The notes beneath the pieces are model-generated. The model was not told the origin of the DNA and searched no databases. It saw only the letters and a program-made list of their open reading frames with translations. A DNA stretch of 34,524 bases from Candidatus Thalassarchaeum sp. (GTDB lineage: Archaea > Thermoplasmatota > Poseidoniia > Poseidoniales > Thalassarchaeaceae): contig JASMMD010000015.1 of NCBI GenBank assembly GCA_030748335.1, positions 1-34,524 on the forward strand. The letters run 5' to 3'. The position numbers and the translations under genes are program-made. This document shows, one piece after another, positions 8,841 through 29,813 of this stretch; positions within the stretch are counted from its first letter, which is position 1; every line of letters begins with the position of its first letter.

Positions 8841-9533
8841 ATGGTCGAGATTTCGGCGGTGGTCTTCGACTGCGACGGGGTGCTGACCGACAACGGCTCC
8901 TCATGGCAGAACATTCACGACAACTTCGGGACCGAGAATCTTGATACTCTAGAGCGCTTCCTAAATCGCGAGATTAGCGATGACGAGTTCATGGCCGATG
9001 ACATACGGTTGTGGACCGCTGTCCAACCACGCATACACCGCGATGACATCATGCGATGCTACTCTGGAATTACGCTGATGACGGGGGCACGCGATGTTGT
9101 GCGCGAACTGCAGAGCAGGGGGATTTTCGTTGCCATCGTCTCTGCCGGCGTCGATGTCTTCGTCGGAGCCATAGCATCGATGCTTGAGGTGGATGACTGG
9201 GTCGCCAACGGCTTCGACTGGGATGAGGAGAGTTGGTTGCGCGGACCCTCGCCCGCTAGGGTCAACTCGCACGAGAAGGGCGTGTTGGTCGAGAAGCTCT
9301 CTCGAATTGAGGGGATTGAGGCGCAGGGCATCGTTTCGGTGGGAGATTCCAGCACCGACCTCTCAATGATGATTCCCGGCTCGCGGTTCATTGGCTTCAA
9401 CCCAGCCCGGCAGAGGGCAGTGGATGCATTCGAGGAGGCAGGGGTCCCGATGGTGAAAGGCAACGACCTGCGTGACATCTGGGTGCACCTGTTCGACGGT
9501 GAGGCGTTTCCGGACTCAGGCGAAGGGGATTGA
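8841..9533 (+). CDS. HAD-family phosphatase, phosphoserine phosphatase-like
   Basis: About 230 residues. All four HAD motifs are visible: VFDCDGVLTDNG (nucleophile and acid aspartates), VSAGVD, the lysine in HEKGVL, and VGDSSTDLSMM. The small helical cap and the overall layout resemble SerB/MtnX-type enzymes, so phosphoserine phosphatase is the first guess, but the substrate is not fixed by motifs. The ORF track extends the gene to 8658 across the moaD-like gene; the TATA element at 8812-8819 and the HAD strand position support 8841. Its 3' end overlaps the 3' end of the DNA polymerase gene by 18 bases. Confidence 0.82.
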   Translation: MVEISAVVFDCDGVLTDNGSSWQNIHDNFGTENLDTLERFLNREISDDEFMADDIRLWTAVQPRIHRDDIMRCYSGITLMTGARDVVRELQSRGIFVAIVSAGVDVFVGAIASMLEVDDWVANGFDWDEESWLRGPSPARVNSHEKGVLVEKLSRIEGIEAQGIVSVGDSSTDLSMMIPGSRFIGFNPARQRAVDAFEEAGVPMVKGNDLRDIWVHLFDGEAFPDSGEGD

Positions 9534-11135
9534 GGCCGTGGCGTGGGTGTGGAGATTCACCACCGTCAGAATGCATGGCTTGGGCTGGAACCCCAACATC
9601 CTCTGGTAGTCGGTCTGATCCTGCCAAGTGGAGCTGTGAACCAATGTGGTGCCCTTGTGGTTGCCGACGTAGTGCCCGTGCACATGACCGGTGACGAAGA
9701 TATCAGGCACCGTGGAGATGACCATGCGATCCTCGGGCTCTGGTGACAGCGGGGTCTTACCACCCCATGACGGGGCCAGGTGCCTGCGTTCCATCATCGC
9801 CCTCATCGCCAGTTCCGGCGAGGAGTAGGTGACTGAACGCAACCCCGCCACGAAGTCGTCGATGCTCTTCCCATGGTAAGACAGTACGCGGACGCCGTGT
9901 AGGCTGAAGTCGCAGGGGTTGCCGACGAACACGGCGTCTGAATAGTCCTGCTGCACCTCCGGGTCGAGGGCTGGTTGCGGCTCTGCGGGGCGGACCGCGT
10001 CATGATTGCCAGGTAGGATCATCACATCGACCCAGTCTGGAAGTCGCTCTAGGAGCCTCGCCAGCTCGCCGTATTGGTTGAATAGGTCCTTGATTGCCAA
10101 ATGGCGCTCTTGGCCCGGGTAGATTCCGACCCCATCCACTCCATCGCCGCTCAGAACGAAGTACTTCACGGTCCGAGCCAAGGGATCCGTCCTGAACCAC
10201 TCGATCATCTTCTCCCACTGCGGGGCGAGGAAGGTCTTACTGCCCACGTGGACGTCAGACAGGAAGGCAGCCGAGACGGCCTCGGACTCGCTTGCTGCGG
10301 ATTTCGAGTGCCTCCCCAGAGGAGGCATGTGGATGTCGCTGACCGAGAAGTACGGGTCCCTGTTGCCAATTACGAAGTGTCCGCTGACGCCAACGACGTC
10401 GTCGTTCATCAGGCCATCTATCGAGGGGTGGAACCCGGATGCCCCTGATGGTTCCTTCAACATGCACCTAATCTGCATCGAGTCGTCCTCTATGTCGAAC
10501 CAGAGGTACCCTCCCTTGGACCACCTGTCAACACTGACCAGTCCGACCAGAGTCACCTCGTAGTCCCGGCTGGAATGCCGCTGCCTGTTGCGCCACGCCT
10601 CCGAGATACTGATTGGACGGCGCGGCAGTGCCCTTCCGGCAATCATCATCTGACGTATCTGACTCAGTCTGTCCGAGAAGCACGACCGGATGTCCTGCAT
10701 CTTACCCTGCGTGGTCGAGCGCCCCGTGATGTCGAAGTGTATCTCAATCTCCGCGTCGACGTCCTTGGCCTGCATCGGGAAATCGTCGAGACTGTAGTGG
10801 TCTAGCCCATGGCGACGCACAGGTGGAGCGAGCACCTGGGCTCCGACTGGTGCTAGGGTCCGGCCAATGGCCGAGTGGCTTTCCGGGTCCGGCAGGGTCG
10901 CCTGCTCGGACCTTGGCGTGGGAGGGGCTTCGATAACATCGTCGGTCGGAACCAGGGTCAGGATCTCATCCACGGTCCTCTCGCTCAGCATGACCACGTT
11001 CGACCTCTGGGCGGCCTCGATTAGGGGCGAGATGTCTGAGAGGCGTTGGATCCTCTCTTGCGCGGCCCTGCCGACTACGAGGAGGCCTGCAGCGGTCAGT
11101 TGGCGCTGCATCTCAGCCCATTCGCCATCGGCCAT
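9516..11135 (-). CDS. polB: Family D DNA polymerase small subunit (DP1)
   Basis: A 539-residue protein. The first ~60 residues form a helical region, a low-complexity linker follows, residues ~190-275 look like the OB fold, and the C-terminal part is a calcineurin-like phosphoesterase. The metal-binding motifs are intact: LSDVHVGSK, LSGDGVDGVG, LPGNHDAVRP and TGHVHGHYV. DP1 provides 3'-5' proofreading and partners the DP2 catalytic subunit of the archaeal replicative PolD, not seen here. Upstream on the same strand is cinA, 72 bases away, with a strong inverted repeat in between, so DP1 may have its own promoter. The identification is firm. Confidence 0.95.
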   Translation of the reverse strand: MADGEWAEMQRQLTAAGLLVVGRAAQERIQRLSDISPLIEAAQRSNVVMLSERTVDEILTLVPTDDVIEAPPTPRSEQATLPDPESHSAIGRTLAPVGAQVLAPPVRRHGLDHYSLDDFPMQAKDVDAEIEIHFDITGRSTTQGKMQDIRSCFSDRLSQIRQMMIAGRALPRRPISISEAWRNRQRHSSRDYEVTLVGLVSVDRWSKGGYLWFDIEDDSMQIRCMLKEPSGASGFHPSIDGLMNDDVVGVSGHFVIGNRDPYFSVSDIHMPPLGRHSKSAASESEAVSAAFLSDVHVGSKTFLAPQWEKMIEWFRTDPLARTVKYFVLSGDGVDGVGIYPGQERHLAIKDLFNQYGELARLLERLPDWVDVMILPGNHDAVRPAEPQPALDPEVQQDYSDAVFVGNPCDFSLHGVRVLSYHGKSIDDFVAGLRSVTYSSPELAMRAMMERRHLAPSWGGKTPLSPEPEDRMVISTVPDIFVTGHVHGHYVGNHKGTTLVHSSTWQDQTDYQRMLGFQPKPCILTVVNLHTHATASIPFA

Positions 11136-11187
11136 CCTCAGCGGGTGGGCCGGGGCCGCTCATGATGATATCGCCGGAATTTCTCAG

Positions 11188-11206
11188 TCGGTGCCGTAGG
11201 CACCGA
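11188..11206. repeat. Perfect inverted repeat with C-TAC-G centre, between cinA and DP1
   Basis: On the minus strand TCGGTGCC-TAC-GGCACCGA is a perfect 8-base inverted repeat around a 3-base centre. It begins 1 base after the cinA stop and lies ~20 bases before a TATC-rich stretch that could be the DP1 promoter. No T-run follows. It shares its TAC centre and C-G closing pair with the repeats at 23696 and 29735. Confidence 0.8.
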
Positions 11207-11207
11207 T

Positions 11208-11897
11208 TCAGTCGTCCCAGTCTGTGAGTGAGGCGAGGTCAACCTCGGATATCTCCTCGGCCACCGTCTTCTTGCTACTTTGCCAGCCCATGCTGCCCTC
11301 CCACTCTTCGTCGGAGGGATCGAAATCGGAGGTATCAACCTCGGAGTCCTCAGTTTGCCTCTCGGATGCTTCGGACTCAGAGATCTGGTTCCCTTCAACC
11401 CTATCTAGGGCCTCAAGCGTGAGTCTGAGGGCGAAGGCTGCGAAGGAGCGTTTGTTATCCAGACGGTCATTCTCTCCGTAGTCCATCCGCCTGACTAAGA
11501 AGTAATCCTCAGTCACCACTGCCACGTGAACCCGGCCGACCTCCTTGTCTGGCGTGGATCCCCCTGGACCGGCAATTCCGGTTATGCCGATAGCAACGTC
11601 TGAGTCCGACTGATAGCGCGCTCCTCTGGCCATCTGAACCGCGACCTCGTGCGAGACGGCCCCGGCCTCGCCCTCATCGAAAGCAGTCTTCTCGACCCCG
11701 AGTTCGCGCATCTTGGAGTCGTTGGAGTACACCACCCATCCCTGCTTGAACCACTCGGAGGCGCCTGAGATGTCGGTTATCAGCGAAGCCAGCAACCCGC
11801 CCGTGCACGACTCGGCTGTAGATACCGTCCAGCCACGCTTGCGAAGCCGGCGGGTCACCCGGGATGCCAGTCCCGCAGTCTCTTCGACCACGTTCAC
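11208..11897 (-). CDS. CinA C-terminal domain amidase (NMN deamidase-like) with acidic tail
   Basis: A 229-residue protein. Residues ~1-165 match the CinA C-terminal domain (PncC), with STAESCTGGLLASLITDISG, WVVYSNDSKMRELGV and GITGIAGPGGSTPDKEVG all present. Characterised members deamidate nicotinamide mononucleotide to nicotinate mononucleotide in pyridine nucleotide recycling. The N-terminal COG1058 domain of full CinA is absent, as in many stand-alone proteins. The last ~60 residues are a Glu/Asp/Ser-rich tail (SESEASERQTEDSEVD), not part of the family. The start is GTG 11897 within a CCGGCCATGGCCGG palindrome; GTG 11891 is possible. Directly upstream is tRNA-Val on the same strand. Confidence 0.88.
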   Translation of the reverse strand: MNVVEETAGLASRVTRRLRKRGWTVSTAESCTGGLLASLITDISGASEWFKQGWVVYSNDSKMRELGVEKTAFDEGEAGAVSHEVAVQMARGARYQSDSDVAIGITGIAGPGGSTPDKEVGRVHVAVVTEDYFLVRRMDYGENDRLDNKRSFAAFALRLTLEALDRVEGNQISESEASERQTEDSEVDTSDFDPSDEEWEGSMGWQSSKKTVAEEISEVDLASLTDWDD

Positions 11898-23695: not shown

Positions 23696-23714
23696 TTCCC
23701 ACCTACGGTGGGAA
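23696..23714. repeat. Perfect inverted repeat with C-TAC-G centre, upstream of etfB
   Basis: TTCCCACC-TAC-GGTGGGAA is a perfect 8-base inverted repeat around TAC, 10 bases after the gcdH stop and 10 bases before the TTCATA element of etfB. There is no T-run after it. Confidence 0.8.
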
Positions 23715-23723
23715 TGCCGAAAA

Positions 23724-23729
23724 TTCATA
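23724..23729 (+). promoter_or_regulatory. Candidate TATA box for etfB
   Basis: TTCATA within AAAATTCATAGAGG lies ~38 bases before ATG 23765; the alternative CTTTAGT is ~22 bases before it. The spacing to the inverted repeat just upstream resembles that at the L44e promoter (29761). Confidence 0.4.
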
Positions 23730-29734: not shown

Positions 29735-29749
29735 TCCTGCTACGCAGGA
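29735..29749. repeat. Perfect inverted repeat with C-TAC-G centre, upstream of L44e
   Basis: TCCTGC-TAC-GCAGGA is a perfect 6-base inverted repeat around TAC in the 137-base space between the divergent membrane protein gene and L44e. It ends 11 bases before the TTCATAAAC element. Confidence 0.75.
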
Positions 29750-29760
29750 GTCTCGATAGA

Positions 29761-29769
29761 GTTCATAAA
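29761..29769 (+). promoter_or_regulatory. Candidate TATA box for the L44e cluster
   Basis: TTCATAAAC is the most A/T-rich element in the spacer, ~48 bases before ATG 29814. That would leave a leader of ~20 bases containing AGGTAGGGAC, a possible ribosome-binding site. Confidence 0.5.
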
Positions 29770-29813
29770 CGGGTCATCGGTGGCCGCGCTGTCGCAAGGC
29801 GTGAGGTAGGGAC

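Follow-up and report, generated by a model that had tools for sequence, protein, structure and literature searches.

The promoters of the coliphage N4 virion RNA polymerase are hairpins with short stems and a 3-base loop containing a sheared G:A pair, and they extrude at sub-physiological superhelical density (PMC4496689). They demonstrate extrusion in cells for short stems that carry a 3-base loop with a sheared pair (PMC4496689). The cruciform-capable repeats of Escherichia coli are perfect and short, have small spacers, and show enrichment both close to promoters and past stop codons (PMC6060812). Arm conservation with a variable spacer is a general finding (PMC13155455). Repetitive extragenic palindromes (REPs) are present between genes in many copies per genome (PMC12306157, PMC3733652). 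Archaeal termination is described in terms of a U-tract and aCPSF1 (PMC8716108).

A sequence-only reading of the DNA analyzed here (the window, 34,524 nucleotides) had pointed to a set of three intergenic inverted repeats with a TAC centre and a C-G closing pair, and had named no described archaeal element of this form. We found no description of one either in the open-access papers searched. The genome to which the window belongs, as contig C6, is 80% complete, and its closest named relatives are Candidatus Thalassarchaeum betae and related Marine Group II genomes. The host is from one of the archaeal lineages that are abundant in the surface ocean. The features of interest are the following.

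9516-11135, minus strand: DNA polymerase D small subunit DP1 (Pfam PF04042), downstream neighbour of palindrome 1
11161-11172, minus strand: GATATCATCATG element, likely the core promoter of DP1, 15 nt beyond palindrome 1
11188-11206, TCGGTGCC-TAC-GGCACCGA on the minus strand and TCGGTGCC-GTA-GGCACCGA on the plus strand: palindrome 1, 8-3-8, exact
11208-11897, minus strand: cinA (Pfam PF02464), upstream neighbour of palindrome 1
23696-23714: palindrome 2, TTCCCACC-TAC-GGTGGGAA, 8-3-8, exact, between an acyl-CoA dehydrogenase gene and etfB
23724-23729, plus strand: TTCATA box, predicted etfB promoter (from alignment and the learned TTSAWA motif), 9 nt beyond palindrome 2
29735-29749: palindrome 3, TCCTGC-TAC-GCAGGA, 6-3-6, exact, in the divergent space upstream of the ribosomal protein L44e gene
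29762-29767, plus strand: TTCATA box, predicted L44e promoter, 12 nt beyond palindrome 3, kept in the whole genus

All three repeats are exactly as first read, including the placement of palindrome 1 in a 72-bp space (11136-11207, between cinA and DP1), where it lies 1 nt past the cinA stop codon. Their proposed proximity to promoters also held, with a TTSAWA-type box or a conserved, likely promoter element beside each. The GATATCATCATG element is kept across the genus, even at spaces without a palindrome. The DP1 promoter at 11161-11172 has a conserved GCGATATCATCATGAGCG element, unlike the usual TTSAWA box, and a short ATG..TGA frame lies inside this element, ahead of the DP1 start. Palindrome 1 can fold on either DNA strand (about -9.4 kcal/mol, z -5.5). 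Palindromes 1 and 2 are the only perfect 3-base-centre repeats with 8-bp arms in the window, and both are intergenic in a genome with an intergenic share of only about 6%. Palindrome 3, at 15 bp, is not significant alone; it is kept in all six high-GC-clade loci that cover the site, the window included. It is flanked by two TATA-like boxes, read as two opposed promoters, and its transcription from either local promoter is therefore not expected. The L44e 5' leader (29770-29813) is strongly conserved across the family and is possibly a ribosomal-protein leader. Rfam matched only three tRNAs in the window and none of the palindromes.

The window repeats are members of a genome-wide set. We surveyed 913 kb of the window's own genome (G000) and 686 kb of a congener (G012), two genomes in all, both on fragmentary MAG contigs. 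Genes were called with a home-made hexamer model (94% coding), and start codons are predictions. Spaces with tRNAs were removed; tRNA anticodon arms and N-runs gave false triloops and were discarded. In the intergenic DNA of both genomes there were 82 perfect repeats with a 3-base centre and arms of at least 7 bp, compared with 3.9 ± 2.0 in shuffles (about 20-fold). With arms of at least 8 bp there were 51, compared with 0.9 ± 0.9 in dinucleotide shuffles. The supposed set of three is really one of about 54 in the 913 kb of G000, and with 32 in G012 this makes a set of 86. Enrichment was much weaker for spacers of 4, 6, and 8 bases, and the counts for spacers of 5 and 7 are partly 3-base repeats read one or two pairs out. 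Genic repeats had no peak comparable to the intergenic one at 3-base centres. Repeats with one mismatch were in modest excess between genes (42 versus 21), and the excess was equal for sense G.T and A.C (9 and 9). One tandem space of 152 bp in the window's own genome (C9:11403-11475, locus L048) holds a 10-bp hairpin with a TTCG tetraloop and, 20 nt later, a 13-bp C-TAC-G hairpin.

The set is restricted to the genus. Other Thalassarchaeaceae had three such repeats versus 3.3 in shuffles (54.8 kb of spaces from about 60 loci), and therefore the trait is lineage-specific. High GC as the sole cause was rejected: loci L185, L197, and L244 from other genera (54 to 56% GC) are without repeats, and L200 (58% GC) has only a 5-bp repeat at the etfB place. 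Nor do the palindromes form a shared family or regulon. For 86 palindromes there was one intergenic second copy at one mismatch, the same as in the shuffled-arm control, and no locus had near-copies beyond that level. This disposes of the suggestion of a small palindromic repeat family. Like REPs, these palindromes are intergenic and numerous in each genome. However, REPs are dispersed copies that share sequence, whereas no two palindromes here are copies, and the many near-identical copies per genome expected of REPs or mobile palindromic repeats were not found.

The repeats are also distinctive in composition. Arm GC is 72%, compared with 57% for intergenic DNA, and the closing pair is C-G in 72 of 86, as had been claimed, versus 108 of 205 genic chance repeats. 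The first and third centre bases are R..A on one strand and T..Y on the other in 60 of 86 (about 20 expected, p ~1e-19). Conversely, G..G/C..C centres occurred once among the 86 (14 expected), and A..T, G..C, and A..C/G..T centres twice together (about 21 expected). This R-N-A/T-N-Y rule was absent from genic repeats, and terminator-type tetraloops were not preferred. TAC/GTA is the commonest centre overall (16/86), chiefly from G000, where TAC accounts for 13 of 54 (about 1 expected); in G012 it accounts for only 3 of 32. TAC is therefore one value of a wider rule, and we rejected it as the defining centre. The earlier proposal was right that the centre is constrained and wrong that it is invariably TAC.

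Our preferred reading, which we put at a probability of about 0.42, is that the elements may be DNA-level hairpins, small cruciforms that would be extruded by negative supercoiling beside promoters. Each is a locus-unique perfect inverted repeat of 7 to 9 bp with a 3-base centre, set between the neighbouring gene and the core promoter. Negative supercoiling would extrude it as a miniature cruciform, with the loop stabilized by the C-G closing pair and by a contact between its first and third bases (sheared R.A on one strand and T.Y on the other). The extruded hairpin might then buffer torsion or form a boundary next to the promoter, or it might be a structural signal to a DNA-binding protein. 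The enrichment, the loop rule, the frozen arms described below, and the placement are facts of the sequence, from which we infer extrusion in the cell and an effect on transcription. In favour of DNA hairpins are the enrichment, strictly intergenic and strongest for 3-base centres, along with the perfection of the repeats, the closing pair, the loop rule, locus uniqueness, and the GC-rich arms. The equal excess of sense G.T and A.C indicates no strand-specific wobble tolerance, and we count this for a DNA hairpin too. On the other side, stems of 7 to 8 bp require considerable supercoiling.

The N4 precedent and a GyrA homologue encoded in the genome (PF00521, E 2e-148) also favour DNA hairpins. 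The repeats have the short perfect stem, 3-base loop, C-G closing, and R..A first-third pair of an N4-like extruded hairpin. They resemble the N4 promoters in lying at a promoter and in combining a short stem with a sheared purine-A pair in the loop, and the N4 stem is itself partly variable (PMC4496689). Extrusion of the N4 hairpins from duplex DNA is driven by gyrase-dependent supercoiling (PMC4496689), and negative supercoiling would extrude the repeats here as well. By contrast, N4 sites share conserved bases and are read by a phage T7-like polymerase. Here each locus has arms of its own, the TATA boxes downstream of the repeats are of the ordinary archaeal type, and nothing implies a polymerase of that kind. 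If the hairpin reading is true, extruded DNA hairpins would be in genome-wide use at ordinary cellular promoters, and about 50 natural conserved examples would allow a direct test of an old question, that of whether short cruciforms arise in vivo and have effects there. A bolder version, which we think possible but rather improbable, is a chromosomal DNA-hairpin code, in which dozens of promoter-side miniature cruciforms would be recognized or would work by structure, with sequence free between loci and fixed within them, as a cellular parallel to the hairpin promoters of phage N4.

Between G000 and G012 (about 80% protein identity), orthologous spaces kept 24 of 27 repeats, in keeping with the conservation in place that the sequence-only reading looked for. 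Divergence was 2.1% in the kept arms, 43% in the centres, 31% in the flanks, and 28.5% in repeat-free spaces. Of the 21 centres that aligned, 16 belonged to the class and 15 of these remained R-N-A/T-N-Y, and two centres were altered at all three bases with a strand swap (ATA to TGC and TCT to GCA). That centres stay in class even through a strand swap is not predicted by a free operator spacer or by a one-strand RNA, and it favours a DNA hairpin. However, there was no compensatory change in 189 arm pairs. Arms that differ while remaining complementary, the original argument for structure, are thus seen between loci but not within a locus, where arms are nearly frozen. The classical covariation argument is therefore absent, and the argument for structure comes instead from loop chemistry, perfection, the C-G closing pair, and locus uniqueness.

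Individual sites follow the same course. The arms of palindrome 1 are identical in 8 genomes, with TAC, TAT, TAA, or CGC as the centre, and its position in a low-GC sister clade is pyrimidine-rich instead. Palindrome 2 does so in four genomes; its TCCCACC arms are kept in L165, L166, and L167 (centres TTC, TAC, and TAC), a different perfect palindrome (TGGGCTC-TATA-GAGCCCA) takes its place in L169, and an imperfect one does so in L168. The inner arms of palindrome 3 are kept in 6 genomes (centres TAC, TTC, and TGC). One 16-base arm set is unchanged in all 13 genus genomes: TCGACATC-NNN-GATGTCGA has exactly one copy in each of the 13, with TAC, TAT, ATA, or TTT as the centre. In the window's own genome this palindrome is at C44:34686-34704 (loci L258-L269), upstream of an acyl-CoA carboxylase (MCC-like) subunit gene. 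It is followed by CCATTCAATTGAAG; in another genus the promoter motif is kept and the palindrome is absent.

Zero compensatory change and arms invariant in 13 genomes are the pattern expected from sequence-specific binding, and they weigh against a DNA hairpin. Each palindrome might accordingly be read as the duplex site of a dimeric (e.g., helix-turn-helix) transcription factor, with a 3-bp spacer, serving as an activator or repressor site next to BRE/TATA. The nearly invariant arms around a variable spacer, and the identity at the MCC subunit gene in 13/13 genomes, would suit such operators. A dyad of 7 or 8, 3, and 7 or 8 bp spans about two helical turns, as in many dimer operators, and archaeal activators bind just upstream of the TATA box, where the repeats sit. 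Even so, we consider operators unlikely. The palindromes are all unique, which leaves no regulon, and about 85 palindromes per genome (extrapolated) would demand equally many regulators. The same motif was found neither at a second target nor at a regulator's own gene, and the downstream genes examined (DP1, etfB, L44e, MCC, and a NOG1-like GTPase) are mostly not regulators. Perfection and the spacer rule would also be unexpected. If the operator reading is true, the number of one-site palindromic operators is unusually high for a small genome. As for DNA hairpins, a stem in DNA could likewise be frozen if selection were strong, no intermediate were tolerated, and the population were very large. 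Under either reading, the elements are markers for the boundaries of promoters and operons in genomes without genetics.

The positions of the repeats bear on whether they act in RNA. The core promoter motif learned for the genus from G000 and G012 is TTSAWA (TTCAAA, TTGAAA, or TTCATA), mostly about 30 to 50 nt before start codons, with an A+T peak about 26 to 28 nt ahead of them; TATA-box positions are predictions. When a tandem space is shorter than 95 bp, its repeat mostly ends 0 to 21 nt upstream of the best TTSAWA box. Many repeats also start 0 to 10 nt past a stop codon. As to strict anchoring to the stop codon or to the TATA box, short spaces are too tight for the two to differ, and long ones give a mixed picture. 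When every space of 60 bp or more was counted, repeats were more frequent in tandem than in divergent ones (51/241 versus 21/194, p 0.004), but in matched spaces of 80 to 150 bp the rates were equal (20/110 versus 16/105). Short convergent spaces had none, though few such spaces exist.

The overall tandem excess and the proximity to stop codons would suit RNA hairpins at transcript ends, located in the upstream gene's 3' UTR and serving there as terminators, 3'-end protectors, or read-through insulators before the next promoter. So would the strong RNA folding of the repeats, the pyrimidine-rich sequence at the position of palindrome 1 in the low-GC sister clade, and the sense-strand bias toward T-N-Y over R-N-A centres in tandem spaces (25:11). 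This bias is not predicted by a symmetric cruciform and counts against our preferred reading. Nevertheless, we regard transcript-end hairpins as quite unlikely. In length-matched divergent spaces the repeats are equally frequent and lie upstream of both promoters; this similar rate, together with palindrome 3 between its opposed promoters, favours DNA hairpins. The flank composition contained no T-run of the kind that follows a bacterial-type intrinsic terminator on its transcribed side and no U-rich tract as at an archaeal 3' end. T content was the same in spaces with and without repeats, and so we rejected a genome-wide replacement of U-tract terminators. A G.U excess on the sense strand was absent, terminator-type tetraloops were not favoured, and short convergent spaces, few as they are, contained no repeats. 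The terminator option offered initially is weak on these grounds. The repeats do resemble archaeal U-tract/aCPSF1 terminators in following stop codons in tandem spaces, but they have no U-tract and are in divergent spaces too. With the cruciform-capable repeats of E. coli they share perfection, shortness, small spacers, and both preferred locations (PMC6060812). However, most of the long E. coli repeats are intrinsic terminators, and a bacterial spacer is usually 4 to 5 bp. The repeats described here have a 3-base spacer that follows a loop-chemistry rule, lack a U-tract, and are confined to one archaeal genus.

A mutational by-product, in which snap-back (template-switch) synthesis would yield functionless perfect inverted duplications with a 3-base turn as the most stable DNA triloop, is disfavoured and very improbable: the loop and closing-pair chemistry fit DNA hairpin stability, and at two of the three window sites the orthologous spaces of the palindrome clade exceed those of the sister clade by about 10 nt (close to the length of an arm and the loop), but neutral palindromes would decay or change in pairs, whereas 24 of 27 sites are kept with arms diverged by 2.1% against 31% in the flanks.

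Some repeats, included in the totals, abut start codons, with arms of 8 to 10 bp that end 0 to 4 nt ahead of the ATG. With these removed, the loop rule holds for 47 of 65. At the seryl-tRNA synthetase gene serS (loci L245-L255; C44 near 41156-41209 in the window's own genome), the high-GC clade has a perfect GACCAGCCC-NNN-GGGCTGGTC leader hairpin adjoining the ATG, and the sister clade has a version that we read as pairing with U.G and a bulged A. This hairpin appears to behave like an RNA leader element and differs in this from the promoter-side class, and we kept the start-codon class apart. In a close relative (G006:C6:28448-28726 and L255), serS has an in-frame TAG that splits it into two matches, perhaps through an assembly error.
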